NCBI GenBank assembly: GCA_011391125.1
Contig: JAABRE010000043.1
Span: 1-45,126, forward strand
From: Synechococcales cyanobacterium S06
GTDB lineage: Bacteria > Cyanobacteriota > Cyanobacteriia > Cyanobacteriales > JAABRE01
DNA length: 45,126 bases
Direction of reading: 5' to 3'
A program made the translations under genes and the position numbers. Every line of letters begins with the position of its first letter. Positions within the stretch are counted from its first letter, which is position 1. Of this stretch, positions 421-42,898 are shown one piece after another. A model generated the notes under the pieces. It saw nothing but the letters and a program-made list of their open reading frames with translations, was not told the origin of the DNA and searched no databases.

Positions 421-455
421 AAAAAATCCGATTTAGGGGAAAAAATCGGATTTTA
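421..455 (-). terminator. Rho-independent terminator of prfA
   Basis: Read on the minus strand, the stem AAAATCCGATTTTTT / AAATCGGATTTT with loop CCCCT is followed by a T run, immediately after the prfA stop. The same ATCCGAT/ATCGGAT stem occurs at two other gene ends in this window (19870-19903 and 22841-22902). Confidence 0.75.
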
Positions 456-19869: not shown

Positions 19870-19903
19870 AAAAATCCGATTTTTAGTCAAAATCGGATTT
19901 TTA
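19870..19903 (+). terminator. Terminator after ndhN
   Basis: AAAAATCCGATTTT-tagtc-AAAATCGGATTTTT is a strong stem with a T run. It lies between the MITE and the Slr1339-type gene and can end ndhN transcription. Confidence 0.7.
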
Positions 19904-19972: not shown

Positions 19973-20629
19973 ATGGAAGAAATTGATAAATTTTTGACGG
20001 AAATTCAAGATCAATGTGAGAAAAAAAAGGAGATAAATACTCCTAAATCGAGGGATAAAATAGACGAGTTTTTAGGTGATTTTATGAGTAATTTTCAAGA
20101 AAATAAAACCGAAAAAAAATCGAATAGTAATGATTTATTTGAGGATATTAAGCAAAATTTCACTCAAAGAAAATCTCAAGAAAATAAGCAAAATGAGGAC
20201 TTATTTGAGGATATTAAGTCTAATTTTACCCAGGGAAAACCTAGCACAAATAAGGAAAAATGTCAAGGCCAAAATCAGAATTTAGAGGCAGTTTTTGCGG
20301 ATGTGCAAGCTAAATTTGTGGAGCAAAAAAAAGAGAAACAAACTACTAAGTTATCTGATTCTAATTTAACTGAAATTCAAGCTAATTTTCAACAGAAAAA
20401 AGCGCAAACAGAGGTTAATAAACCCTCAAATATTGAAGCAATCAAAGAGGAAGAATTAAATAAACAAAGACGGAGAAAAGCTTTAGTAAAACAAGCAGAA
20501 ATCTGGTTAAAAAAATTAGATCCTTATTCCGATGAAGGGTTTTGGTTTCAGCAATTTGCTGATAGTTACGATTCAAAATTAGAGGCTGCAATTGATTATT
20601 TAAGTGTCTTAAATGACAAAAAATCTTAA
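19973..20629 (+). CDS. Salt-stress protein of the Slr1339 type with repeated charged motifs
   Basis: The start ATG at 19973 (MEEIDKFLTEIQ) is set by a consensus AGGAGG 9 bases upstream, inside the longer open frame. The 218-residue protein is highly charged and probably largely disordered or coiled. It contains six degenerate repeats of the type (L/V)F-x-(D/E)-(I/V)-(K/Q)-x-N-F-x-Q-x-K: FLTEIQDQCEKKK, FLGDFMSNFQENK, LFEDIKQNFTQRK, LFEDIKSNFTQGK, VFADVQAKFVEQK and LTEIQANFQQKK. The C-terminal QAEIWLKKLDPYSDEGFWFQ resembles the conserved end of the cyanobacterial Slr1339 salt-stress family, from memory. The molecular role is unknown. Only 9 bp separate it from the next gene, so the two are very likely co-transcribed. 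Confidence 0.75.
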   Translation: MEEIDKFLTEIQDQCEKKKEINTPKSRDKIDEFLGDFMSNFQENKTEKKSNSNDLFEDIKQNFTQRKSQENKQNEDLFEDIKSNFTQGKPSTNKEKCQGQNQNLEAVFADVQAKFVEQKKEKQTTKLSDSNLTEIQANFQQKKAQTEVNKPSNIEAIKEEELNKQRRRKALVKQAEIWLKKLDPYSDEGFWFQQFADSYDSKLEAAIDYLSVLNDKKS

Positions 20630-20638
20630 TAGAAACAG

Positions 20639-22834
20639 GTGAATAAAATTATATGGTTAAATGAAATTGAAGAATCAGATTATCTAATAGTTGGTGATCC
20701 AGTTTTTAATTTAAGTTATTTACAACAAAATAATTATCCGGTGGTTAATGGTTTGGTGGTTAATAGTTTAATTACGAGGGATTTTTTGTCTAATTTTGAG
20801 CGTAATTTTGAGGGTTTGGATGTTGATAATTATCAAACGTTGCAATATCTTTCTCAACAAAAATACCAAGAAGTTATTAACTACAATTTACCTGATGATT
20901 TGGGATTAAGTTTAACTAAAGAAATTGCTAAATTAAATAGTAAATTTGTCATTTGTCGTTATTCTTTTATAGAAAGTAATAAACATATTCATAATTTAAG
21001 TAGTTTGTTAGATGGTGAGTTTGTTATTATTAATTCAGCCAATATAATCACGGGAATAAAACAACTTTGTGGCAATTTATTCACAGCTAAAATATTATTT
21101 TATTGCCAAAAAATAGGGCTTAAATTTGAGGATATTCAATTTAGTATTATCGTTCAATCAATTAAAGATTATTTTGCTTCCGGTTTTGTGCATATTAACG
21201 AAAATATAATCAATATTAAAGCAAGTTATGGTTTAAGTTATGGTATTTTCAGGGGAGAAGTGTTAGCAGATTTATACGAAATAGATGGTCAATCAGGTGA
21301 TATTCTTAAACAAGAATTGGGTAAAAAAAGTGTTTATTATCCCCTTAATTTAAAATTTAAAATAGTATCTGAAACTGAACAAAATAAATATTGTTTAAAT
21401 AATTATGTTTTAAAAGAATTAATTGATTTAAGTCAAGATTTTTTTAATAAAACCCAAAATTATGATGGTTTTGAATGGGTTATTTGCAATCATAAACTTA
21501 TGATTAATAGGGTAATTAAGGTTAATAATAAACCAAAAAGTAATTATCAAAAATTAGCAAAACCTGAACCTATTTTAAAGGGAATTGCGGCCTCAAACGG
21601 CAAAAAATATGCTAGTGTTCAAGTAATTTCTGGGTATAATTATCATTTTCAACCCATTGAAATGGGCAAAATTTTAGTAACTAAAAATGTGACTCCCGAT
21701 TGGCTACCTTTGCTCAAAAAAGCTGCGGGAATTATCACCGAAGAAGGTGGAATTACTAGCCATGTAGCGATTATGGCCAGGGAATTGGGGATTCCAGCCA
21801 TTGTGGGGGCAAAAAATGCGACGAAGTTGTTAAAAACGGGGGAATCCATTGTTATTGATGGTAATACTGGTAATATTTATGCGGATGTTCAAGGGTTAGA
21901 AAATGAAGTAATTTTGTTGAGTGATATTATTTCTAAAAATGCGAATAATTTGGTTAATTTTGAGACAGAAATTAGGACTAAATTATTAGTGAATTTGAGT
22001 GAAAGTTCCTTAATAGATCGAGCAGTAAATTTACCTATTGATGGTGTTGGTTTAATCCGTGGTGATTTTATTTTACTTGGTTTAATTTCTGAGTCTTCCC
22101 TGAGTTTAAAAGAGTGGTTAGAGGAGGAAAATAAGCTAATTTTAGTTAACAAATGGGTTAATTTAATTAGTAAATTTGCAAAAAGTTTTGCTCCTAAACC
22201 AATTTTTTATCGTTCTTTAGATTGGTTAAATTTCAATAATTTAACTGAGATTAATCCTTTATCTTCTGAAAGAGGAACTTTGAGTTATTTATCTGAAGAT
22301 TCCTTGTTTAATTTGGAGTTAGAAATGTTAGCGAGGGTTCAATCTTTTGGTTATACTAATGTTAATTTAATTTTACCTTTTGTGCGTAGTGTAGATGAGT
22401 TTATTTTCTGTCGAAATTTAGTAAATAAAATCGGTTTAAATAGGTATAAGTCCTTTAAATTATTAATTATGGCCGAAGTACCTTCGGTGATTTTTTTGTT
22501 ACCTGAATATATGAAAAATGGGGTTCAAGGTATTGCAATTGGAACGAATGATTTAACCCAATTACTGTTAGGAATAGAACGGGAAAAAAGTTTTAAAATT
22601 TCTAGTTTAACTGCGATTAATCCTGCTGTATTATCAGCACTTCAGCAGTTAATTAAGGTTGCTAAGGAAGGTGGGATTTATACTTGTATTTGTGGACAAG
22701 CACCGGCGGAATATCCCGAATTAATTAATTATTTAATTGATTGGGGAATTGATGCTATTTCTGTGGATTTAGAAGCGATAGAAAGGACTTTTCAGGTAAT
22801 TTTAGCGAGGGAAAAAAATATTAAACAACCATAA
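20639..22834 (+). CDS. PEP synthase-like protein with degenerate ATP-grasp half
   Basis: GTG start at 20639; 731 residues. The C-terminal two-thirds matches PEP synthase/pyruvate phosphate dikinase. The swivel domain has the phospho-acceptor His375 in EEGGITSHVAIMARELGIPA. The PEP-binding TIM barrel has R525 (YRSLDW), R545 (ERGTLSY), E613 (MAEVPSV), N637-D638 (IGTNDLTQLLLG) and C685 (CGQAPAEYPE). The N-terminal 300 residues keep only the outline of the nucleotide-binding domain: the usual RSSxxxED(L/A)...SFAG segment reads FVICRYSFIESNKHIHNLSS. I therefore doubt it makes PEP from pyruvate and ATP. It could be a PEP-dependent phosphotransferase, or catalytically inactive. Codon use is strikingly AT-rich. 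It is paired with the Slr1339-type gene. Confidence 0.75.
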   Translation: MNKIIWLNEIEESDYLIVGDPVFNLSYLQQNNYPVVNGLVVNSLITRDFLSNFERNFEGLDVDNYQTLQYLSQQKYQEVINYNLPDDLGLSLTKEIAKLNSKFVICRYSFIESNKHIHNLSSLLDGEFVIINSANIITGIKQLCGNLFTAKILFYCQKIGLKFEDIQFSIIVQSIKDYFASGFVHINENIINIKASYGLSYGIFRGEVLADLYEIDGQSGDILKQELGKKSVYYPLNLKFKIVSETEQNKYCLNNYVLKELIDLSQDFFNKTQNYDGFEWVICNHKLMINRVIKVNNKPKSNYQKLAKPEPILKGIAASNGKKYASVQVISGYNYHFQPIEMGKILVTKNVTPDWLPLLKKAAGIITEEGGITSHVAIMARELGIPAIVGAKNATKLLKTGESIVIDGNTGNIYADVQGLENEVILLSDIISKNANNLVNFETEIRTKLLVNLSESSLIDRAVNLPIDGVGLIRGDFILLGLISESSLSLKEWLEEENKLILVNKWVNLISKFAKSFAPKPIFYRSLDWLNFNNLTEINPLSSERGTLSYLSEDSLFNLELEMLARVQSFGYTNVNLILPFVRSVDEFIFCRNLVNKIGLNRYKSFKLLIMAEVPSVIFLLPEYMKNGVQGIAIGTNDLTQLLLGIEREKSFKISSLTAINPAVLSALQQLIKVAKEGGIYTCICGQAPAEYPELINYLIDWGIDAISVDLEAIERTFQVILAREKNIKQP

Positions 22835-22840
22835 CAAAAG

Positions 22841-22902
22841 AAATCCGATTTTTGGCAGTTTGTTAGGTTTTGATCTTTAATTTTTGCTTAAAAATCGGAT
22901 TT
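22841..22902. terminator. Bidirectional terminator between convergent genes
   Basis: AAATCCGATTTTT and AAAAATCGGATTT form a perfect 13-bp inverted repeat separated by about 36 bp. It lies in the 95-bp gap between the PEP-synthase-like gene (+) and zipN (-), where a terminator serving both is expected. Confidence 0.6.
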
Positions 22903-22929: not shown

Positions 22930-25059
22930 TTATTTAATAATTTTTAAGTCCTTAATTAACCAGGTTTCATTAACCAGAATTAAGTCATAACTAACAACTA
23001 AATTAGAGTTATAGGATTTGTTTTCCATGAGTTTTTCTCCTTGGTAATATTTAGCATTTTCTACGATGTCTGCTTCTATGATTCCCTGTTCAGGTTTTTG
23101 CTGATTAATTTCCACTTTTTTAATCAGAACTTGATGTTCATATTCAAAATAAGCTTGACTATTTTTAATGGAAGTTGCTCTTTTAAGTTGAACAGATAAA
23201 ATGGGGTCGGTTAAAATTGCCTTTAAACTATCAATTTGATAATCTTTACCAAAAGCTTTGGCTTTTGCATCTAACCAAGCTTGGATAATTTCTTTGGCTG
23301 TATTTTCATCCAGTTGTCCGGAGGGTAAACTAATCTCAGTTTCCGGAGCAGGAATTGGAACAGGAGGTTTAGTCAAGTTAATGGCTAAACTATCCATATC
23401 TGCGACTATTTCTGGGGATTTATTGCTATTTTTAAATAAGATATAACCAAGAGAAAAAGCAGCAATAATTACAACTAAAGGTATCACAATTAAAGGAATT
23501 TGCGGCTTATTTTTTAGTAATTTTTTGGTTTTTCTTTTAGGATAATTCTCTTGTTTTACTCTCGATTTTTTACGAGGAGATTTAGCAGCAGAAGGAAGTT
23601 TAGAAAGTAACCAAATTAAGATTTTTTTGAGTTGATTAGGTTGTATTCTGGCTAAGTTTGCTGGTCTTTTTTCCTCCTGATTTGTCGCAGAATTTACCGG
23701 TTTTTGGACTACTATATCCGAAGAAGATTTAGGAGGATTAATAATAGGAGTTTGGGGAAGATTTAAGGGAGTTGGAGTGGTTTTTCTTGAGATTGATTCG
23801 GGATTTTCTTCTCCAAGTAATTGCTCTAAATATGTTTGAACTTGAGGAGCAGCAAAATATTCCGTTAAGGAAACTTCCCGATTAATTAAGTCTTGAAAAT
23901 GTAAAAAAACTTCGTTTTGTAACCATCTTTCTGTATATAAACATAAACCATGTAATAAATCAGAATCTCCGAGGGAATTTTCCCGAATAAAAGCAATTGA
24001 TTCGTATTCTTGGCTTAATTCTAAAACTTGGCCTGCTTCTTCTGTTTGTCCTAAAAGTAGGCTACAAATTGATTGTTCTAAATGAACATCCTGTTTTTTA
24101 GCTAAGATTAATAATAATTTTTTAGCCCTTAAAATTAACTCCGGTTTTTTGTCAGCAAAACCCCTTGCTAAAAGTGCATAAACAGCTAAATAAGTAGCAA
24201 CAGCAGAAGGTCTTTTCGCTTCAAATTCAAAGATTTCTTGTTGTTCTGCTACGGTTAAATAACTGCGTAATTGTTGGATAAAACGCAGAAAATCATCGAT
24301 AGTTAACCCCGATTTATCATCACCTAATCCTTCGATTCCGCCCCTTTCTTGGAGCATTTCTTGTAGTAATCTAATCCCTTTTCGTCTATTAGTGATATTC
24401 TGATCATGAGTTGCTAATAATTCTAAAACTCGATAGGGTCGTAATTTATATAAATCCGCTTGAATTTCCCCTTGAATACTAGGAAATAATCCTTCTCTTA
24501 ATAATAATTCCTGTCCAGCTTTTCCCGAAGCAACTGCGTTTTCATATTCCCTTTGTTGCCATTGTTCCCTACCTAATTCTAAACATCCTAAAGCAATGGT
24601 AAGAATTAGATCGTTTCTAATAGTTTTGGCATCATTTGTGGCCTCTATTTTTTGATTAGTTTCCTCAATTAAATAGGAATCTCCTAATCTTAAAACTAAC
24701 TCATATTCGCCTAATTCTTGCAGAATCAAAAGTGCGCCTAAAAATTGATCTTGACTAATTTCTAACCAAGGATTAGGATCAGATAAAGATGAGGATGGTT
24801 CTGGGGCTGAATTTTCGTGATCGACAGTTTTTATGTCATAATTTTTGAGAAATTGGGTATTATATTGACTGCGTTTTTCTGGATCTGAAAGTTCAGTATA
24901 AGCTTGATCTAACAATTGCTGCCGCGCAGTAATAGCGAGATCGCTATATTCGCGTCTCGGCATTTGCAAGCGACGATCTTGATATGCTTGGGTTATCTGT
25001 CGAGAAGTTGACTGAATTGGCACTCCTATTATTCTGTAATAATCAAGCGGTATGCGCAC
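22930..25059 (-). CDS. zipN: Cell division protein ZipN/Ftn2 (ARC6 homologue)
   Basis: Anchors FtsZ rings to the plasma membrane in cyanobacteria and is homologous to chloroplast ARC6. The 709-residue protein has an N-terminal J-like domain (LDYYRIIGVPIQSTSRQITQ) that lacks the HPD motif, as usual for this family. A long helical cytoplasmic region follows, then a basic Pro/Ser linker. One transmembrane segment lies near residues 520-541 (PLIVIPLVVIIAAFSLGYIL). The C-terminal IMS/ARC6-like domain has AKEIIQAWLDAKAKAFG and a final ETWLIKDLKI. It is divergent from aspS and convergent with the PEP-synthase-like gene. Confidence 0.93.
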   Translation of the reverse strand: MRIPLDYYRIIGVPIQSTSRQITQAYQDRRLQMPRREYSDLAITARQQLLDQAYTELSDPEKRSQYNTQFLKNYDIKTVDHENSAPEPSSSLSDPNPWLEISQDQFLGALLILQELGEYELVLRLGDSYLIEETNQKIEATNDAKTIRNDLILTIALGCLELGREQWQQREYENAVASGKAGQELLLREGLFPSIQGEIQADLYKLRPYRVLELLATHDQNITNRRKGIRLLQEMLQERGGIEGLGDDKSGLTIDDFLRFIQQLRSYLTVAEQQEIFEFEAKRPSAVATYLAVYALLARGFADKKPELILRAKKLLLILAKKQDVHLEQSICSLLLGQTEEAGQVLELSQEYESIAFIRENSLGDSDLLHGLCLYTERWLQNEVFLHFQDLINREVSLTEYFAAPQVQTYLEQLLGEENPESISRKTTPTPLNLPQTPIINPPKSSSDIVVQKPVNSATNQEEKRPANLARIQPNQLKKILIWLLSKLPSAAKSPRKKSRVKQENYPKRKTKKLLKNKPQIPLIVIPLVVIIAAFSLGYILFKNSNKSPEIVADMDSLAINLTKPPVPIPAPETEISLPSGQLDENTAKEIIQAWLDAKAKAFGKDYQIDSLKAILTDPILSVQLKRATSIKNSQAYFEYEHQVLIKKVEINQQKPEQGIIEADIVENAKYYQGEKLMENKSYNSNLVVSYDLILVNETWLIKDLKIIK

Positions 25060-33953: not shown

Positions 33954-34475
33954 TTAACTGTTAATTGTCTTACAATAAGTAGCACTTGAACCTGTTTTTT
34001 GAGTGGGATTATAGTCCCCTGAACGACTCATCCCAATAAAATTAGAAATAATTAAACACCTTTGATAACTAATATTGTCCGCTATTTTATCAATTACCAT
34101 GGTTCCTAAGACATTCGATCGCCCCCGATAATCAAAGACTATTTGATTATTTTTAGAAGCGTAATTATGTCTTAAATTAACATCTTTTAAAGTGCGATCG
34201 CCGGTGACAAAACAATCACTGGTAATAGTCGGATTATTAGTATTAGTAAGGGGTAAAAAAATAGTACAATTCTTACTTTTCATGATCGCTTGACGTTGAA
34301 CTTCTTGTACGGCGCTCAGTAGAGTAGAAGCGGCACTATTAATTTTTGCCCTTTGATACATTCCCAAAAAACTAGGGGCACTTAAACTGGCTAAAAGACC
34401 AATCAAAAACAGCACGATTAATTGCTCAAGTAAGGTAAAACCAAGCAAGTCAGAATCTTTAGTCCCATAGTTCAT
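33954..34475 (-). CDS. Type IV pilin-like protein (GspH/FimT family)
   Basis: The prepilin leader ends LGFTLLEQL, with cleavage expected between G and F and the conserved Glu5, followed by the hydrophobic helix LIVLFLIGLLASLSAPSF. The 173-residue protein has paired Cys in its C-terminal half (DCFVTGDRTL, QRCLIISN, YCKTINS). It is a clear paralogue of the pilin-like protein at 39326-39874: both share SAPSF/GAPSF, VQRxAIMKSK, SDCFVxGDRTL and the final GDYN. It stands alone, 4 kb from the pseudopilin cassette. Confidence 0.88.
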   Translation of the reverse strand: MNYGTKDSDLLGFTLLEQLIVLFLIGLLASLSAPSFLGMYQRAKINSAASTLLSAVQEVQRQAIMKSKNCTIFLPLTNTNNPTITSDCFVTGDRTLKDVNLRHNYASKNNQIVFDYRGRSNVLGTMVIDKIADNISYQRCLIISNFIGMSRSGDYNPTQKTGSSATYCKTINS

Positions 34476-34478
34476 CTC

Positions 34479-34711
34479 TAACTACCTCTGTTGATAAATC
34501 AAATAGAGACATTATCACTGATGAATGCTCAAGAAATCTGTTTGCTTGAATACAAAACTAGATGAATTCTGGTTCGCTGTAGGCAAAATTGAGAAATTAA
34601 GTAGGTAATGATAATTAATTGTCTAAATCTAAGCTACTTGGTATCGTACTCTCGGAGCTAAGTTGAAGGTTGGTGCGTTACGCTTGGAGCTAACACACCC
34701 TACTAACTCCA
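34479..34711. other. Intergenic stretch upstream of the detached pilin gene
   Basis: No gene. The part next to the pilin start should hold its promoter. Fragments of the GGTGCGTTACGC/TAACACACCCTACTAA repeat occupy 34669-34705. Confidence 0.4.
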
Positions 34712-34905
34712 CCAAGGGGGCGATCGCCTCCCTTGGTTTTATCCATAATTTAACCAATCCTTAACCTTAATTTAACTTTATTATGGTATAGTCACGTTAG
34801 TTGCTGGCGGTGTTGGTGCCGTACTCTCGGAGCTAACACACCCAACAATTTAGCTTGGGTGCGTTACACTCCTAACACACCCTACTAACTTAAGTTATTT
34901 GTGGG
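34712..34905. repeat. Left direct repeat flanking hicBA
   Basis: About 190 bp repeated in the same orientation at 35482-35664. Shared blocks are a HIP1-containing CCAAG(G/A)GGGCGATCGC, the TTTAACC array, CACGTTAGTTGCTGGCGGTG and CTAACACACCCTACTAACTT. The two copies bracket the HicBA module. Confidence 0.8.
34738..34778 (+). promoter_or_regulatory. Pho-box-like array 1 (four units, 11-bp period)
   Basis: TTTATCCA, TTTAACCA, CTTAACCT and TTTAACTT begin at 34738, 34749, 34760 and 34771, each separated by 3 bp. A TATAGT (34787-34792) lies 8 bp beyond. The layout matches the SphR/PhoB Pho box described for cyanobacteria. No plus-strand gene follows within 500 bp. Confidence 0.5.
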
Positions 34906-34951
34906 CCTAAAAAATCCATCAATCCTAGTTGATTGTTCAAAATCTGATTAG

Positions 34952-35170
34952 TTAAAGATTTTCCCATTCTTCTCTACTAATTTTTGCTTGACGTAGAATT
35001 CTGGCCAATAAACTTGGGCTGATATCTTGTTCATGGGGATTGGGGAGAGTTAATCTAAAGTCTTTTTTGATCATGTATTGATGTTTACCACCGGAATAAG
35101 GACCTTCAAAACCGATTTTCTGCAAGTAACTAATTAACTTTTTTCTTGTAATTGGTTTCAATGGAGGCAT
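34952..35170 (-). CDS. hicA: HicA-type toxin (mRNA interferase)
   Basis: A 72-residue dsRBD-like protein with the HicA pattern: KPITRKKLISYLQKIGFEGP, then the catalytic-His segment GGKHQYMIKKDFRLTLPNPH, and a C-terminal RILRQAKISREEW. HicA proteins cleave mRNA when not bound by HicB. The ATG shares its first base with the antitoxin stop (TAATG), so translation is coupled. The gene looks intact. Confidence 0.93.
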   Translation of the reverse strand: MPPLKPITRKKLISYLQKIGFEGPYSGGKHQYMIKKDFRLTLPNPHEQDISPSLLARILRQAKISREEWENL

Positions 35171-35412
35171 TAGGCAACCTCTTGGTGAAAATTAAGATCG
35201 ATGCCAGCTAAAATAGGTAAAGAATGCCCTAATTGCAATCCTAAAAGAATCCACCCTTCCAAAACACTTTGCAATTCTTCTCGACATCCTTCTAGGGTTG
35301 AATGATTAGCCCAGACCCCTTCACAGTTAGGAATTTCACCATAATAGGTCTGATCTTCTAAGACCTGATAGGTTGCTTGTTTCATGGCGGCGACTATATA
35401 TTCTGTCAACAT
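35170..35412 (-). CDS. hicB: HicB-type antitoxin
   Basis: The 80-residue protein has the partial RNase H-like HicB fold: YQVLEDQTYYGEIPNCEGVW, then ANHSTLEGCREELQSVLEGW. It lacks a C-terminal DNA-binding domain, so repression would depend on the complex or another factor. It is first in the operon, ahead of the toxin, and the pair is bracketed by direct repeats. Confidence 0.93.
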   Translation of the reverse strand: MLTEYIVAAMKQATYQVLEDQTYYGEIPNCEGVWANHSTLEGCREELQSVLEGWILLGLQLGHSLPILAGIDLNFHQEVA

Positions 35413-35481
35413 TGCGGCTACTTTTTAATCTTTTCTCCCCATCTTAACATAACACTACTTTAGCCAGAACCACCCACAGCG

Positions 35482-35664
35482 CCAAGAGGGCGATCGCTTC
35501 CCCTTGTTTTAACCATGATTTAATAAATCCTTAACCTTAATTTAACCTTATTATGGTATCTTCACGTTAGTTGCTGGCGGTGTTGGTGCGTTACGCGATG
35601 AGCCAAGTTGAATTTTGGTGCGTTACGCTCCTAACACACCCTACTAACTTAAGTGATTTGTAGG
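35482..35664. repeat. Right direct repeat flanking hicBA
   Basis: Partner of 34712-34905. It carries the second Pho-box-like array and ends CTACTAACTTAAGTGATTTG, where the GTAGGTCTTGTACCTAC palindromes begin. Confidence 0.8.
35508..35548 (+). promoter_or_regulatory. Pho-box-like array 2 (four units, 11-bp period)
   Basis: TTTAACCA, TTTAATAA, CTTAACCT and TTTAACCT begin at 35508, 35519, 35530 and 35541. TATGGTATCT follows. It is in the hicB upstream region but directed away from hicB. Confidence 0.5.
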
Positions 35665-35727
35665 GGTAGGTCTTGTACCTACCCATTCCACCATCAAGAT
35701 TGTAGGGGTAGGTCTTGTACCTACCCA
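35660..35727. repeat. Two GTAGGTCTTGTACCTAC palindromes
   Basis: TGTAGGGGTAGGTCTTGTAC-CTACCCA occurs at about 35661 and 35701, and a third copy lies at 36242-36268 between the two DUF29 genes. Each is a near-perfect palindrome. Confidence 0.85.
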
Positions 35728-35732
35728 GCCCA

Positions 35733-36185
35733 CTATTTACTAGGGAACCAATCCTCATCTAACAATTGTTCTAAAGTGTAAGGACATTGTTCAGGGAAAA
35801 CATTAAGACCCGATTTTTTGCTAACATATTTAGCAGCATCACGATAAATTTTATCTAATTCTTCTGTTAAATAATTGCGAAAATTGCTAGTCATTCTATT
35901 TCTTAATTGAGTACGAAAACCGACAATTTCAGCGCTCCAATGGTTAGAATTGCGGTCAAATTCACTATCCCAATACTGTAGTAATAAAAGATGCCTAATT
36001 ATCTGTTCTAATAAACTGCTAACCTGATGTTTTTTCTCACTACCCAAATATTCTAACTCCTCAATCAAATTGTCTAAATCTAATAAATTAAATTTTCTAC
36101 TTTTGAGTAAATTAACTGTTTCCTGTAACCAAAGATAATCATCTATTTCATACAATTCCTTAAGGTTATATTGTAATTGCATCAT
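35733..36185 (-). CDS. DUF29 family protein, downstream member of tandem pair
   Basis: The frame is open to 36299, but the paralogue next door begins MMQLQYNLK. The same codons occur here at 36185, preceded by AAGAGGACTC, so that is the start (150 residues). DUF29 features: LYEIDDYLWLQETVNLLKSR, LDLDNLIEELEYLG, LLEQIIRHLLLLQYWDSEFD and a C-terminal PYTLEQLLDEDWFPSK. It differs from its twin mainly around residues 20-60. Function unknown. Confidence 0.88.
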   Translation of the reverse strand: MMQLQYNLKELYEIDDYLWLQETVNLLKSRKFNLLDLDNLIEELEYLGSEKKHQVSSLLEQIIRHLLLLQYWDSEFDRNSNHWSAEIVGFRTQLRNRMTSNFRNYLTEELDKIYRDAAKYVSKKSGLNVFPEQCPYTLEQLLDEDWFPSK

Positions 36186-36273
36186 AAAAAGAGTCCTCTT
36201 AATTAAACCGAATAGGAGACGCAATTGCCCACCATCGAGATTGTAGGGGTAGGTCTTGTACCTACCCAGTCCA

Positions 36274-36726
36274 CTATTTACTAGGAAACCAATCCTCATT
36301 TAACAATTGTTCTAAAGTGTAAGGACATTGTTCAGGGAAAATATTAAGACCAGATTTTTTGCTAACATATTTAGCAGCATTGCGATAAATTTTATCTAAA
36401 TCTTCTGTTAAATAATTGCGAAAATTGCCAGTCATACTGTCATTTACTTGAGTACGAAAACCGATAATTTCGGCGGACCAATGGTTAGAATTGCGGTCAA
36501 ATTCACTATCCCAATATTGTAGTAATAAAAGATGTCTAATTATCTGTTCTAATAAACTTCTAATCGCTAACTTATCTCTTCTGCTCAAACTTTCTAACTC
36601 CTCAATTAAATTATCTAAATCTAATAAATTAAAATCCCTATTTTTCAGTAATTTAATAGTTTCTTCTAACCATAAATTATCATCTATTTCATATAAGTCC
36701 TTAAGGTTATATTGTAATTGCATCAT
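36274..36726 (-). CDS. DUF29 family protein, upstream member of tandem pair
   Basis: 150 residues from ATG 36726 (MMQLQYNLKDLYEIDDNLWL), with AAGAGGACTT upstream. Roughly four-fifths of aligned residues match the neighbour by eye. The C-terminal 90 residues are nearly identical, while LESLSRRDKLAIRSLLEQ replaces LEYLGSEKKHQVSSLLEQ. Uneven divergence suggests gene conversion or selection on the N-terminal half. Confidence 0.88.
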   Translation of the reverse strand: MMQLQYNLKDLYEIDDNLWLEETIKLLKNRDFNLLDLDNLIEELESLSRRDKLAIRSLLEQIIRHLLLLQYWDSEFDRNSNHWSAEIIGFRTQVNDSMTGNFRNYLTEDLDKIYRNAAKYVSKKSGLNIFPEQCPYTLEQLLNEDWFPSK

Positions 36727-37160
36727 AAAAAAAGTCCTCTTAATTAAACCCCAATTGCTTGATTATAAAGATTTTTTTGGACAATAAGTAAAATACCTAC
36801 TGTCATTTATGTTAACACTTTCTCACTAAGGCGATCGCCAGGCGCCACCCTTAGTGAGCGGACACCAAGCTTAACCTGAATTTAACCTAAATATGTTAGG
36901 TAGGGTGGGAAATTGCGGCGATCAATTATGGAGGAAAATTCAAATTAGGAGGCGCAATTGCCTACTCGACAATTATTTTACCATTAATTATATTTATAGC
37001 ATTTTCAGATTAAATGAGATACAACCCCTCACCCCCCTACCCCCCTCATCCCAAAGGGAGAGGGGGAAAAGAGTCCTCATAAATTTGGCAAGTGCTATAT
37101 CTATTTACTTAATTATGTTATAATCGAAAATAATTTAATTAAATAAAAACTAAACAAACA
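36727..37160. other. Intergenic region with repeats and a Pho-box-like pair
   Basis: 434 bp without a credible gene. It holds a HIP1 site near 36831, the Pho-box-like pair at 36870-36888, AGGAGGCGCAATTGCC at 36946-36961, a CCTCACCCCC/AAAGGGAGAGGGGG repeat at 37024-37070, and an AT-rich stretch before the next gene. Confidence 0.5.
36870..36888 (+). promoter_or_regulatory. Pho-box-like array 3 (two units)
   Basis: CTTAACCT (36870) and TTTAACCT (36881) are 11 bp apart, followed by ATATGTTAGG. It is the only array pointing toward a plus-strand gene (37161), about 270 bp away. Confidence 0.4.
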
Positions 37161-37502
37161 ATGGTAAAACTAACAATAGAAATACCAGAAGAGTTAGCCG
37201 AAAATTTAAAACCGTGGTCAAATAAACTGCCCGAATTACTAACAGAAATAATAGCAAAGAAAGCCTCTTCTTCGCCAAAATATAATCAAGTTTATGAGGA
37301 ATTTATTTATTTTTTAGGGCAAAAACCTAGTTATGAAGAAATAATAAATTTTAAAATTTCACCAGAAAGTCAAGCAAGAATAGCCTTATTACTAGAAAAA
37401 AATAGAGAAAATAGCCTCAATTTAGAAGAACAAGCCGAACTAGCTATTTATGAACAGTTTGAAAATATGGTAATTTTATTAAAAGCTAAAATAATCAAAT
37501 AA
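37161..37502 (+). CDS. Conserved cyanobacterial hypothetical, partner of an HNH gene
   Basis: The 113-residue protein begins MVKLTIEIPEELAENLKPWS, with a long helical acidic C-terminal half (RIALLLEKNRENSLNLEEQA). The N-terminus resembles short antitoxin-like or ribbon-helix proteins. I recall this family sitting directly upstream of HNH-nuclease genes in cyanobacteria, as here, with 5 bp between the two. The function is not established. An antitoxin-like or regulatory role for the nuclease is inference only. Confidence 0.7.
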   Translation: MVKLTIEIPEELAENLKPWSNKLPELLTEIIAKKASSSPKYNQVYEEFIYFLGQKPSYEEIINFKISPESQARIALLLEKNRENSLNLEEQAELAIYEQFENMVILLKAKIIK

Positions 37503-37507
37503 TAAAA

Positions 37508-38179
37508 ATGTCCTTAGCAATATCAATTAAAAAACAAGTATTTGAAAGAGCAAAAGGAAGATGTGAATATTGTCTAATTAACGAGAAATTTTCGCCTTAT
37601 CTGAACTGCTGAGAATACCCCTCCTTCGGACAGCTAAACTTGTTAGAGTTTAGGTAGGACAAGGAGGGGATGAAAAGCAGACGATATTCTTGACAATCTT
37701 GACACTCAAACAAAAAAGAATTAAAATAAGTTTTGTCTTAAATTTTTGCGTAAAACGCTAGCTGAAATTGCTGCAATCAAACAAAAACTGAAAGATTAAA
37801 TAAGATTAAATGCGGTCGGACAGCCCGTATTAAAAAATGCTTGTGGACTCGATGCGACGGGGACGCGGAAACTTCTGTTTCCGCGTCTAGTTGGCAGGGT
37901 GTGAAACAAGAATCTCCGACCTCGGTCAAAATTACCTCCTGAGCATAGCGAAGGGTCAGGCTAACGCCTGCGCGTTGCGACAGGTGATTTTAGAACGCGG
38001 TCGTGAGAGTGTCAATTAATCCTCGTAGGAATAAATGGTCAGATCATTTTACTGTCGAAAATGGTAAAATAATCGGACTAACCGAAATCGGCAAAGCTAC
38101 TACTAAGTTGCTACAAATAAATAATGAAACCAAAATTATTCAACGTCAATTATTAAGCAAAAAAGGTTTTTACCCCTAG
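37508..38179 (+). pseudogene. HNH endonuclease gene broken by an IS-derived insertion
   Basis: The start at 37508 encodes MSLAISIKKQVFERAKGRCE-YC, the typical N-terminus of cyanobacterial HNH proteins, and then runs into foreign sequence with a stop at about 37612. After the insertion, the frame from about 38016 to the TAG at 38177-38179 encodes NPRRNKWSDHFTVENGKIIG, then LTEIGKATTKLL and a basic tail. That is the conserved C-terminus of the same family. The central part with the HNH catalytic residues is absent, so the gene is dead. Confidence 0.85.
37600..38015. mobile_element. Deleted IS200/IS605-type element (tnpB tail and right end)
   Basis: The frame at 37839 reads ACGLDATGT and, after a +2 shift, 37901 reads VKQESPTSV; both are typical of TnpB C-termini. 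The sequence after it folds (AAAATTACCTCCTG...CAGGTGATTTTA, with an inner stem) like the right-end/omega-RNA region and ends in TCAA at 38015. At the left, CCCCTCCTT...AAGGAGGGG (about 37618-37669) brackets an inner AGCTAAACT/AGAGTTTAG stem, another end-like hairpin. Most of tnpB and any tnpA are missing. Confidence 0.75.
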
Positions 38180-38195
38180 GAGCGATCGCCAAAAC

Positions 38196-38214
38196 CTTAA
38201 CCTAAATTTAACCT
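38196..38214 (+). promoter_or_regulatory. Pho-box-like array 4 (two units)
   Basis: CTTAACCT (38196) and TTTAACCT (38207), 11 bp apart, sit directly behind a GCGATCGCC site and are followed by TTATGTGCT. It lies just past the HNH pseudogene stop. Confidence 0.4.
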
Positions 38215-38232
38215 TTATGTGCTGAGCCTTAA

Positions 38233-38301
38233 ACTGTAGGGTGCGTCAGATTTTGAAGTTAATTGTTCTAGTCATAATGGTTTTGTCTGACGCACCCTAC
38301 C
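38233..38301. repeat. GTAGGGTGCGTCAGA palindromic repeat
   Basis: GTAGGGTGCGTCAGA at the left and TCTGACGCACCCTAC at the right are perfect inverted repeats of 15 bp around about 40 bp. Non-coding. Confidence 0.85.
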
Positions 38302-38306
38302 CAAAC

Positions 38307-38347
38307 TTTAACCAAATTTTAACAAAATCTTAACCTAGATTTAACCT
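38307..38347 (+). promoter_or_regulatory. Pho-box-like array 5 (four units, 11-bp period)
   Basis: TTTAACCA, TTTAACAA, CTTAACCT and TTTAACCT begin at 38307, 38318, 38329 and 38340 with exact 11-bp spacing. TTATGTGTTATT follows. The next gene lies on the opposite strand. Confidence 0.5.
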
Positions 38348-38367
38348 TTATGTGTTATTAACGGGGA

Positions 38368-38583
38368 TTAAACGGCGATCGGTGTAAGATGATAAATACG
38401 AGCAAATTGACTAGCGGTTTTAAGGTCATCTTGACAGAGAGCGGCCCGAACTTGATCTAATTTTTCAGCATCAGCTAAGGATAAATAGGGAGACCATTCA
38501 TCAGCTGTTTTAATCAGCTCAATGTCAACTTCAGCTAAATACATTCCGACACGAAGGATTTTAGTATGAGGTTTTGTAATCAT
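38368..38583 (-). CDS. Small conserved cyanobacterial hypothetical protein
   Basis: 71 residues starting MITKPHTKILRVGMYLAEVD, then EWSPYLSLADAEKLDQVRAA and ASQFARIYHLTPIAV. I recall this family (SPYLS...A.KLD.VR.AL) as a common small cyanobacterial protein, often next to putative toxin partners. Here no partner is adjacent. The function is unknown. Confidence 0.7.
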   Translation of the reverse strand: MITKPHTKILRVGMYLAEVDIELIKTADEWSPYLSLADAEKLDQVRAALCQDDLKTASQFARIYHLTPIAV

Positions 38584-38612
38584 AGTTTGAGAAAACAGAT
38601 AATTGACTGATC

Positions 38613-38677
38613 CAAAAACCTGGTTTCTCCTGATTAAGCAAAAATCCCCTTAAACAGTTCAAGAAACCAGGTTTTTA
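38613..38677 (-). terminator. Terminator of the pseudopilin cassette
   Basis: AAAAACCTGGTTTCT and AGAAACCAGGTTTTT form a 15-bp inverted repeat with a loop of about 35 bp, directly after the last cassette gene. On the minus strand it ends in a GGTTTTT run. Confidence 0.6.
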
Positions 38678-38682
38678 AAAAA

Positions 38683-39306
38683 CTACTTAGCACGGGCAAA
38701 AGCGGTGGTTTTCACCTTCACATAGTCATCAGATTTTGATCCTGTTTTACCATACATATATAAATCAACTCGGCGATTATCGCTATAAATACAAGCATAA
38801 AAACCTTTACCTGTGGTAATATCATTAGGAATAAAGGTAGCAGAAGCTGTGGTGCAAGCAGTCTTAATTGGATTAATTTCACTAGTAGAAGGTACTACCA
38901 AAGCATCTACTAAAACAGCATTGGGATTAGTACCTTCTTTTCTGTTGACAATAAAATTATTTAGCCAAATTGAACCAGCACTAGAACTACTATCTGTAGA
39001 GTAAGTAACCGCAGAAGCAGAACTTGGTATAGTTAAAACTAAATTATTACTACTTGCCGTAACATTACTAGACATTTTCACCTCCTCGGAAATAAATTCC
39101 ATGGCGCGGTTAAGTTCAAGTTGGCGTTGGGTTTTAGATTGCTCAGATTGATTGACTTCTAGGATAGAAACCAAACCATAACCGGCTCCGCCAATGACAA
39201 TGGTACTCATCACCGTAGCAACCAATAACTCAATGAGGGTAAAACCTAACGGTGAGTTATGGTGTTTAAATATATTTATAATATTAATCAATAGTCGATT
39301 TTTCAT
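38683..39306 (-). CDS. Pseudopilin, PilW/HpsC-like
   Basis: A 207-residue protein with a type III prepilin leader, LGFTLIELLVATVMSTIVIGG, cleaved before Phe and with Glu5 present. A long N-terminal helix (SILEVNQSEQSKTQRQLELN) and a beta-rich C-terminal domain follow. It is the last gene of a four-gene cassette, 19 bp after the GspH-like gene. By analogy with cyanobacterial minor pilins and Hps pseudopilins it would sit in a pilus or polysaccharide-secretion assembly; the exact system is inferred. Confidence 0.8.
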   Translation of the reverse strand: MKNRLLINIINIFKHHNSPLGFTLIELLVATVMSTIVIGGAGYGLVSILEVNQSEQSKTQRQLELNRAMEFISEEVKMSSNVTASSNNLVLTIPSSASAVTYSTDSSSSAGSIWLNNFIVNRKEGTNPNAVLVDALVVPSTSEINPIKTACTTASATFIPNDITTGKGFYACIYSDNRRVDLYMYGKTGSKSDDYVKVKTTAFARAK

Positions 39307-39325
39307 GGCTAGTTACCATTCTTTA

Positions 39326-39874
39326 TTAATTTTGAACAGCTTCACAGTTATTTGTTGTTTCATTATAGTCACCTAAGCGGATTAATCCCAAAGGTTGAGA
39401 AATAAAAGCACATTTTTGAATGTTAGGGTTATCTTTATGTTCAAAAATAATTACACCTTCTAAGAACATTGAAGGAGAGCTATCATTATCTTCCGTTGTA
39501 TTGTTTCCCTTAAAATCAAAGATAAGGCGATTCTCAGGAAAGGCCTCGCTATAATTATGGGTAATTTTGACCTCAGTTAAAGTGCGATCTCCCATGACAA
39601 AACAATCACTGGAGAGAACAGGTTCAATAGAGTTGCTTGAACCACTGGCCGGTAAATCAATAAAGCAGCTTTTGCTTTTCATGATGGCGATTCGTTGAAC
39701 TTCTTCCATGGCCGAGCGGAAGGTATTAGCAGCCTCTGTTACCTTACCTCTTTGCTGCATACCGAAAAAACTAGGAGCTCCCAAAGAGCCTAAAACACCG
39801 ATAATCACAAGTACCACTAATTGTTCTACAAGGGTAAAACCTAATTGTCGATTAGTTGCAGTTAAACGCCGCAT
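39326..39874 (-). CDS. Pseudopilin, GspH/FimT-like
   Basis: The leader is QLGFTLVEQLVVLVIIGVLG, with Glu5. The 182-residue protein shares VQRIAIMKSKSCFIDLP, SDCFVMGDRTL and a terminal GDYN...C with the detached pilin at 33954-34475. Its start overlaps the preceding gene by 23 bp, so the two are translated together. The Cys residues may form stabilising disulphides. Confidence 0.85.
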   Translation of the reverse strand: MRRLTATNRQLGFTLVEQLVVLVIIGVLGSLGAPSFFGMQQRGKVTEAANTFRSAMEEVQRIAIMKSKSCFIDLPASGSSNSIEPVLSSDCFVMGDRTLTEVKITHNYSEAFPENRLIFDFKGNNTTEDNDSSPSMFLEGVIIFEHKDNPNIQKCAFISQPLGLIRLGDYNETTNNCEAVQN

Positions 39875-40406
39875 CTGGGATCACCTCCGTATATAATGTT
39901 GCTACTTCTTTGTTATCTGATGTATTTTTTACTAAATAGGTTAATTGCAAAACATTAAAGGGAGAAGTAGGAGAAACCGTTGCTGTACGAGTTAAATTAT
40001 ATTCAATAGTGTTTATTTTGAGTTTTGTAGTCGGATTATTAGGGAGAAGGACTCCGACTAATGCTTGAGCATAACCATCAGTAGCAACTGTAGCTCCACA
40101 ATAATCTTGATGTTCATCATCAGTCACATATAAAGAATCATTAATATCTGTAATTGAATCATCCCCTAAAAGTGCGGCATTATACCTCACCTCCTCTAAA
40201 TCCTGCTGTATTAATAAAAGGCCTTCCGTGTATTGTTGACTTACTAACCTGGAATAAGCCGCTAATAACATCGCTTGTCCACTGACTAAGAGGAAAATAC
40301 TGGCAATGAGCATACCGACGATGACATCGATAATGGTGAAACCTTCCTCAGTGTTTGCCGAGGGTAGTTTTAATATTTTAATCTTCATATAAACCCCATA
40401 ATTCAT
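39852..40406 (-). CDS. Pseudopilin, PilV/GspI-like
   Basis: The leader EEGFTIIDVIVGMLIASIFL has Asp in place of the usual Glu5, a conservative but unusual change. The 184-residue protein has a globular part with conserved-looking Cys (DYCGATVA and the terminal FNCN). Two starts are possible, ATG 40406 (AGGTAG upstream) and ATG 40388 (GGGG upstream). I keep the longer. Confidence 0.78.
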   Translation of the reverse strand: MNYGVYMKIKILKLPSANTEEGFTIIDVIVGMLIASIFLLVSGQAMLLAAYSRLVSQQYTEGLLLIQQDLEEVRYNAALLGDDSITDINDSLYVTDDEHQDYCGATVATDGYAQALVGVLLPNNPTTKLKINTIEYNLTRTATVSPTSPFNVLQLTYLVKNTSDNKEVATLYTEVIPDAAFNCN

Positions 40407-40503
40407 CTACCTTTCTTACATATTATTATAAGGCAAAAAAAGGGTAGGGTGAGCATTGCCCACCCTACTTTGTAGGATTAATTATTTACCTAATCGGAAG
40501 TCA

Positions 40504-42063
40504 TTAGGGAGTAACTGGTTCTTTTGTAAAACCACTAACATTGCTAATTTGTTTATTTGTTGACGAAGGAATTGGAGTTCCTGTATCTGTATAAAGATAG
40601 GTAAATAAGTCTTTCAGATCTTGCCCAGTAACGGCCTGTAAAACTTTCGGAGGTGCTCCATTAGTGCTATAACTATTAACCCATAAACCTCCTGCGATTT
40701 TAGGATTACCTTTCATCGTTGTACTTGCTTTAGGTGCGAAAATGAAAGCGTATATGTCAGCAGTACCCTTTAATTCAACTGATGTGGCATTTTGAAGGAA
40801 AAAAGACCAATTAGCAGCACTAGCGGAAACTGCACTACCAATTTGAGCATTTCCTCCCAGTTCAAAAGCTTCAGACTGATTTAAAAGCCACGCAACTTTG
40901 GCTTTGTTTGTTGCCAATGAACCTAATTTTGCATTATTACTAATATCCAATTTTCCATCAACATACATAATAATACGATCTTTTCCCGTATTAGTTCCAA
41001 AGGTGACATCCGCTGGTAAATTACAATCACCAGTAATGCGATACTTGTAAACTTTTCCTGTACTTGGTGGAGAGCTTGCATTATAGGTATTACCATCTGC
41101 ATCTTTATCGCCATTGGCTGGATAGTTATATTTTGTGTTAGCTGTATCTATAACTGTCTCTGTAACTGTTTTCTTACCTACAGTTTTAGTTACAGTTTTA
41201 AAAGCTGTACAAGCTGATAACTGATTAACTTTACCTTGGCTAACAAGGGTTGTAAATTCGCTAGAACTAGGATAGTGAGGTAAGGGAGGGAAAGGCATAC
41301 CATTCAAATCTTTTACCATTGACCCTTTTGTACTTGTTAAAGGAGGTGTTTGGTTTCCGTTGGGAACCGATGCGATAGGTAATACGGGAAGATCATCTAA
41401 TAGAGACTTATTAAATGAACCATTACCAGTTTGACAACCTGAACTGTCTAAAACATTGCCATGAACCTGAGACTTCGTATTAAATTGTTTGGACCAAAGA
41501 CCCACACCATCTAAACCATAAAAATCAAGAAAAGTATCTTCTTCACCATCTGCGAGTTTAATATCATATTTGAGCTGAGTTTTTGCTGGCTTATCATTCA
41601 ATTTGCCTTGAATGGTTAATACTCCTTGATTGCTACCTTTATATTCATAACTAACGAGTCGATAAGAGCCATTTCCAGCAGTTTTCCAATCGCTGGTATT
41701 AGCAAAGTTTTCGATAGTTTGAACGTCAACAGTGCTATTTGTTGTATAATTAGGACAGAGTTCATCAGTTATTACCGGAGTGTCATTAGAAATGGTAGTC
41801 CATTCTGTCTGGTCGTCCGCTGTTAATAATTGAGGATTTTGATTCAAAAAACTTAGATATCGAGTTGCTCCAGCTTCGGCTATTCCTCCTACTTGAGTTG
41901 TGGATTTTTGGGCGGCGGCAGTATTTTGACTAAGTTGTCCACGGGCGACCATGGTGAAACCCACAGCCATGGAGATTAAACCAAGACCGATGGCTAATCC
42001 AGTGGTAAAGCCTTTTTCGTTATATTTGCCGGCTAATAAAGCTAATTTTATTTTGGTATTCAT
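40504..42063 (-). CDS. HpsA-like large pseudopilin
   Basis: The 519-residue head gene of the cassette. Near the N-terminus it has KGFTTGLAIGLGLISMAVGF, a prepilin-like helix without Glu5. It is followed by QLSQNTAAAQKSTTQVGGIA-EAG and RYLSFL, which resembles cyanobacterial HpsA and the large Slr2018-type protein encoded with minor pilins. The remainder is a large secreted-type region rich in Asn, Ser and Thr, with a parallel-beta look near the end (LDISNNAKLGSLA, LGGNAQIGSAV, ELKGTADIYAFIF, MKGNPKIAGGLW). In Synechocystis such genes are needed for motility; a role here is inferred. The ATG has AAGGATT upstream. Confidence 0.72.
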   Translation of the reverse strand: MNTKIKLALLAGKYNEKGFTTGLAIGLGLISMAVGFTMVARGQLSQNTAAAQKSTTQVGGIAEAGATRYLSFLNQNPQLLTADDQTEWTTISNDTPVITDELCPNYTTNSTVDVQTIENFANTSDWKTAGNGSYRLVSYEYKGSNQGVLTIQGKLNDKPAKTQLKYDIKLADGEEDTFLDFYGLDGVGLWSKQFNTKSQVHGNVLDSSGCQTGNGSFNKSLLDDLPVLPIASVPNGNQTPPLTSTKGSMVKDLNGMPFPPLPHYPSSSEFTTLVSQGKVNQLSACTAFKTVTKTVGKKTVTETVIDTANTKYNYPANGDKDADGNTYNASSPPSTGKVYKYRITGDCNLPADVTFGTNTGKDRIIMYVDGKLDISNNAKLGSLATNKAKVAWLLNQSEAFELGGNAQIGSAVSASAANWSFFLQNATSVELKGTADIYAFIFAPKASTTMKGNPKIAGGLWVNSYSTNGAPPKVLQAVTGQDLKDLFTYLYTDTGTPIPSSTNKQISNVSGFTKEPVTP

Positions 42064-42422: not shown

Positions 42423-42898
42423 ATGGCACAAATCGAAAAACTTGTTGCTAATTTTACAAAAAATCCCCAAAAATGTGGCGTTGCATAGTTGCGAGATGAT
42501 TTGATATTTATTCTCAATGTAGGGGTAGGTCTTGTGCCTACCCCTACATTGGTATCCTGCCCTGGGCAACCACAAGGGTTGCCCCTACTGCCTACCCTGG
42601 GCAACCACAAGGGTTGCCCCTACATTGGTATCCTGCCCTGGGCCACCACAAGGGTTGCCCCTACTGCCTACCCTGGGCAACCACAAGGGTTGCCCCTACA
42701 TTGGTATCCTGCCCAAGGCAACCACAAGGGTTGCCCCTACATTGGTATCCTACCCTGGGCAACCACAAGGGTTGCCCCTACATTGGTATCCTGCCCAAGG
42801 CAACCACAAGGGTTGCCCCTACATTCCAAGCAAAGGTTTATCAAGTTAAACAAGTTTTTGCGGCTCTTAATAAACTTGAGGAAATGAAATATGATTAA
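42423..42898 (+). pseudogene. hicA: HicA toxin gene split by a palindromic repeat array
   Basis: ATG 42423 encodes MAQIEKLVANFTKNPQKCGV-A and then a stop at 42486. The frame ending at 42898 encodes AKVYQVKQVFAALNKLEEMK-YD, overlapping the downstream antitoxin start by 8 bp. Together these are the N- and C-termini of the HicA family that partners this kind of HicB (N-terminal KLVAxxLxNPxxVRF, C-terminal GKAKPYQVKQVLxAIxKLE, recalled). The catalytic-His middle is missing and replaced by the repeat array at 42519-42826. The toxin is inactive. Confidence 0.82.
42519..42826. repeat. Array of seven GGCAACC-acaa-GGGTTGCCCC palindromes
   Basis: After one GTAGGTCTTGTGCCTAC palindrome come seven copies of a 23-bp palindromic unit ending GTTGCCCCTAC. 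They are separated by either ATTGGTATCCTGCCC(TGG/AAG) or TGCCTACCCTGG spacers, in the order long-short-long-short-long-long-long. Open frames through it (WYPALGNHKGCPY type) are artefacts of the repeat. Confidence 0.92.

Follow-up and report, generated by a model that had tools for sequence, protein, structure and literature searches.

A two-gene locus in the genome of Synechococcales cyanobacterium S06 raises the question of whether an apparent PEP synthase that has lost most of its ATP site could still move phosphate from PEP to a histidine, and, if so, whether the repeat protein encoded immediately upstream is the acceptor. We addressed this question for the window, i.e., the whole 45,126-nucleotide stretch that was analyzed (positions 1 to 45,126 of contig JAABRE010000043.1), and for the relatives of both genes across the cyanobacterial phylum.

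The Gene Pair and Its Genomic Setting

Examination of the ORFs in the window upheld the two genes of the initial annotation, together with their placement and spacing: gene 1 (19973-20629, 218 aa) and gene 2 (20639-22834, 731 aa, with a GTG start) both lie on the plus strand and are separated by 9 bp. Their description as an operon is plausible here given this short gap, but does not carry over to the relatives, in which the pairing is not conserved. Downstream, a convergent ARC6/Ftn2-like gene, recognized by its Pfam ARC6 domains, occupies 22930-25059 on the minus strand. This neighbor (cluster c5) is shared with three relatives (L071, L072, and L074) and is an older companion of gene 2 than the Slr1339-family gene 1; it is linked to gene 2 by synteny only and lies outside its functional system. 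The conserved neighbors considered as partners of gene 2, namely a divergent gene found in 10 genomes, which visual inspection of the sequence suggests is comF-like, and the convergent ftn2 of the three relatives, were rejected, as neither is co-directional with it.

The gene pair is flanked by an AT-rich palindrome. The form AAAAATCCGATTTT-n5-AAAATCGGATTTTT lies upstream of gene 1 (19870-19902, unstranded), and the same arms, set wider apart, recur just after gene 2 (22841-22902, unstranded) as well as near the start of the window (423-454). Perfect copies number seven in the genome against none in a backwards control, and within the window there are 12 arm matches where 1.1 would be expected. 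The element is possibly a terminator or a dispersed, terminator-like repeat. Elsewhere, the window features a minus-strand gene cluster (33954-42063) whose N-terminal motifs (GFTLxE, GFTIID) resemble those of type IV pilins, two adjoining and nearly identical ORFs of 188 and 150 aa (35733-36726; MMQLQYNLKxLYEIDD...) suggestive of a recent tandem duplication, and an ORF of GNHKGCPY/TTRVAPT-type repeats (42489-42887) that is probably non-coding repeat DNA.

Gene 2 Retains the PEP Site and the Phospho-Histidine

The gene 2 product displays the Pfam order PPDK_N, PEP-utilizers, and PEP-utilizers_C, which is the three-domain order of PEP synthase (EC 2.7.9.2). The N-terminal domain (aa 25-289; 20711-21505, plus strand), derived from the ATP-grasp fold and with a degraded nucleotide site, matches PPDK_N at 52 bits. 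It is followed by the swivel domain bearing the phospho-histidine (aa 341-411; 21659-21871, plus strand; E 1.2e-29), with the codon for H375 at 21761-21763, and by the PEP/pyruvate-binding domain (aa 442-720; 21962-22798, plus strand; E 8.7e-44), which contains R474, R525, R545, E613, N637, D638, and C685. The end of the protein (22799-22834) does not have the RLLLEAAR-type C-terminal tail common to most family members.

Alignment with E. coli PpsA bore out every active-site residue named in the initial annotation: H375 corresponds to H421, R525 to R578, R545 to R608, E613 to E680, N637 to N703, D638 to D704, and C685 to C751. Overall, eight of the eight PEP-site and phospho-His residues are kept. 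The protein nevertheless falls well below the PEP synthase equivalog cut-offs, scoring 361.6 against 739.75 bits for TIGR01418 and 379.7 against 598 bits for NF005057.

The ATP Site Is Degraded within a Retained Fold

The eight ATP-site columns that we compared are those that we take, from established knowledge of PPDK and RPH, to be equivalent to the corresponding residues of these enzymes. Only two are filled in gene 2, namely Arg127 (R107) and Glu320 (E279). The other six are changed from PpsA: Lys27 to P21, Gly142 to S122, Thr146 to G126, Asp318 to G277, Gln334 to R291, and Arg336 to I293, with the caveat that the N-domains align at about 20% identity, which leaves single columns uncertain, Q334 and R336 in particular, which a second alignment placed opposite a gap. 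Codon 21 (Pro; 20699-20701, plus strand) stands at the position of the essential Lys of PpsA, PPDK, and RPH (K22 in the latter two). In RPH, the K22A mutant is inactive and R117A or T136V abolishes the overall reaction, whereas the Glu mutant E297A shows that this residue is dispensable (PMC4844700); thus, one of the two ATP-site residues that gene 2 retains is one that RPH can spare.

A structure model built from a shallow 14-row alignment of the window protein with distant PEP synthases from IMG/VR contigs reached a moderate confidence (pLDDT 67.6, pTM 0.55); a single-sequence prediction (pLDDT 30.5) was set aside. Modeled residues 1-296 match the ATP-binding domain of RPH (5hv6_A) with Z 21.9 at 3.8 Å over 274 residues, and the loops of low confidence (21-23, 125-127, and 198-209) coincide with the expected ATP-site region. 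Going by this model, the N-domain retains an ATP-grasp-like fold. Hence, the earlier assertion that gene 2 has lost a recognizable nucleotide-binding segment holds for the residues, six of eight being gone, but is overstated for the fold, since both Pfam and the fold comparison still recognize the domain.

A Cyanobacterial Paralog Family with Uneven Conservation

Gene 2 is a member of a paralog family, new here, that is found in many cyanobacteria and is distinct from canonical PpsA. Literature searches for slr1339 and PEP synthase-like proteins yielded no description of it. Anabaena 7120 has two genes named PEP synthase, alr3147 and alr3397 (PMC4788461). The relatives, 30-44% identical to the window protein, are present in most of the 40 related Cyanobacteriales. 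Across a sample of 194 genomes from the phylum, the family profile matches at E 1e-120 or better in 57; at least one of these is an outlier whose ATP site is intact (G063, L120). A pattern-based search of genome contigs recovered distant matches only, and a search of viral contigs for the window gave no match. Full-length canonical PEP synthase genes occur on at least 13 IMG/VR contigs that are catalogued as viral (L137-L149), and the 12 that were checked have all eight ATP-site residues; either auxiliary metabolic genes or contamination from a host could explain their presence.

In a tree restricted to the His and PEP domains, the canonical PpsA sequences form a single branch with 100% SH-aLRT support. 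One sequence with a degraded site (L085) and one with an intact site (L120) fall near this branch, and the tree leaves the deeper order of the family unresolved. A 574-aa member in G090 was considered as a natural case of N-domain loss and rejected: its gene (L136:795-3153, minus strand) is split into two overlapping frames, likely by a frameshift, and the N-terminal part lies in the overlapping frame just upstream.

Residue retention across 43 family members differs between the two halves of the enzyme. Mean retention is 0.96 for the eight PEP-site and His residues, with H421, R511, R578, E680, D704, and C751 at 1.00, as compared to 0.61 for the other C-domain positions that are invariant in 19 canonical PpsA proteins; in the first alignment, five of 27 members have His for the PEP-site Arg R608. 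For the eight ATP-site residues, the corresponding figure is 0.46, as compared to 0.38 for the remaining PpsA-invariant N-domain positions. Thus, conservation of the PEP site is stricter than that of the domain that houses it, and the ATP site is conserved hardly more than its own domain. The family positions conserved at 85% or above comprise mostly Gly, Trp, Leu, and Pro, together with K141, Q173, and D211, and none of them is an ATP-site residue. All 19 canonical PpsA proteins carry the full set of eight ATP-site residues, apart from a Ser that replaces the Thr in one of them.

These patterns fit a PEP-to-His half that is under selection and an ATP half that is being lost, and are what would be expected if many lineages were each shedding the ATP half on their own while still needing the PEP-to-His half. 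The initial proposal of an enzyme that works through PEP and phospho-His and has no functional ATP site is supported and extends, as a conserved pattern, to the whole family. We place the probability that gene 2 is a PEP synthase paralog that gave up its ATP half and keeps PEP-to-His phosphotransfer at roughly 0.5.

ATP-site decay is graded within the family, with one to seven of the eight residues left per member. Against this reading, some members keep six or seven and may still use ATP, and His takes the place of the PEP-site Arg R608 in the five members noted above. Gene 2 itself might be an ATP-using, perhaps slow, PEP synthase with an ATP site that is divergent rather than dead. Many relatives do keep the Lys (58%), Arg (74%), Gly (63%), Glu (81%), and Gln (70%) of this site, the N-domain fold is intact, and three genomes (G015, G019, and G039) have a family member and no canonical PpsA. 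Of these three members, the one in G015 keeps three of the eight ATP-site residues, while those in G019 and G039 keep six and could be working PEP synthases. However, each of Thr146, Asp318, and Arg336 survives in just 7% of the family, with Ser often in place of the Thr; the window protein is without the Lys whose loss inactivates RPH; and its genome already encodes a separate, intact PpsA (C20, 841 aa). For gene 2, we therefore consider continued ATP use unlikely.

About equally improbable is that gene 2 is a pseudoenzyme that performs no phosphotransfer and acts instead as a sensor binding PEP or pyruvate, or as a partner that regulates PpsA. The degraded catalytic ATP site would suit such a role, most relatives carrying a family member also have PpsA, and mixed dimers of the two are conceivable, as dimerization through the PEP domain in this superfamily would allow them. 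Yet the phospho-His and the catalytic Cys are present in 43 of 43 members, neither of which a pure sensor would need, and the three genomes without canonical PpsA imply that the family is not only a PpsA subunit.

The Slr1339-Family Protein Is Probably Not the Partner

Gene 1 belongs to the Slr1339 family, matching NF047397 at E 2.5e-33 with 115.9 bits against a cut-off of 45, and a Pfam search returned no match for its product. The "salt stress" label of this family is an NCBIfam name only, and we found no mention of slr1339 in the literature searched. A regular expression run on the translation confirmed the six degenerate repeats reported earlier (19988-20389, plus strand; consensus about DLFEDIKxNF), with cores at aa 6-15, 32-41, 54-63, 76-85, 106-115, and 130-139, followed by a conserved C-terminal region.

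The initial annotation had put this protein forward as a candidate partner that could accept phosphate from gene 2, a possibility to which the shared strand and the 9-bp gap lend some appeal. However, among the 38 genomes of the phylum that have both families, the two are adjacent (within 5 kb) in just one, which is that of the window; on shared contigs of other genomes, they lie 0.4-6.2 Mb apart, and adjacency was found in none of 12 further relatives. Co-occurrence of the genes, which the initial annotation had suggested as a check, is strong across the phylum (p = 1.6e-14), which reflects that a single order accounts for most occurrences of either gene. Within that order it is no better than chance (37 genomes with both, 12 with the gene 2 family only, 14 with Slr1339 only, and two with neither; Fisher p = 0.49). 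Moreover, the translation of gene 1 contains no histidine at all, which excludes a PTS-type His acceptor. Given that adjacency is seen only here, the pairing in the window looks like a local rearrangement. The neighboring repeat protein is thus probably not the partner of gene 2, and its being the phosphate acceptor is very improbable.

A Proposed Mechanism and Its Implications

For the preferred reading, that of a PEP-to-His phosphotransferase, the inferred chemistry would begin with the PEP-binding barrel and the swiveling phospho-His domain, which would move phosphate from PEP onto His375 with the release of pyruvate. The phosphate might then be handed on from His375 to an acceptor, if there is one, or the reaction might run in reverse. 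The former ATP-grasp domain would be kept as a folded scaffold or a docking surface.

Any acceptor in this mechanism is something other than HPr, and nothing points to the Slr1339-family protein encoded upstream. HPr (PF00381), the enzyme I N-domain, and EIIA are all absent from the genome, which is 99.98% complete, with all three models being positive in E. coli and other controls. As a candidate acceptor, HPr was further rejected on its presence in only six of 40 relatives, and most of the copies in these six lie in the same reading frame as an enzyme I-like match. It is conceivable, though we regard this as tentative and distinctly less probable than the phosphotransfer reading itself, that many cyanobacteria, mostly without HPr, own a PpsA-derived, PEP-driven His phosphotransferase for an undiscovered protein or metabolite, that is, a PTS-like use of PEP with a PTS-independent origin.

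General profiles label this family as PEP synthase, and its residues suggest that ATP use is gone or disappearing in most members, whose PEP chemistry is preserved. If true, it is an error for metabolic models to count these proteins as PpsA, and an unassigned PEP-dependent phosphotransferase is present in many cyanobacteria.

Comparison with Known Systems

The closest comparison is with PpsA itself (E. coli PpsA, Neisseria 2ols, and the archaeal 9dae and 8a8e), with which gene 2 shares the three-domain order, an identical PEP site and phospho-His, and a profile-profile probability of 100% over the whole length. It departs from PpsA in its ATP site (2/8), in scores far below the equivalog cut-offs, and in its separate branch in the tree. 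Pyruvate phosphate dikinase likewise has the same three domains and fold, but gene 2 scores only 69 bits against a cut-off of 843 and has lost the ATP site. RPH has an ATP-grasp domain of the same fold (5hv6_A, Z 21.9) and, like gene 2, a swivel His domain; its overall domain make-up is different, it uses ATP and binds rifampin rather than PEP, and its essential Lys22 is missing from gene 2.

Enzyme I differs from gene 2 in possessing the HPr-binding N-domain PF05524 (PEP-utilisers_N), which is absent from the window protein and from 25 relatives. In the absence of this domain and of HPr, gene 2 is excluded from being an enzyme I, although it might work like one, as the initial annotation had suggested. 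As in gene 2, the phospho-His domain of enzyme I precedes a PEP-binding barrel, and the C-terminal half matches in sequence; the fold match to 2hwg has Z 24.0 over 382 residues at about 24% identity, and enzyme I takes its phosphate from PEP alone (PMC8100219).
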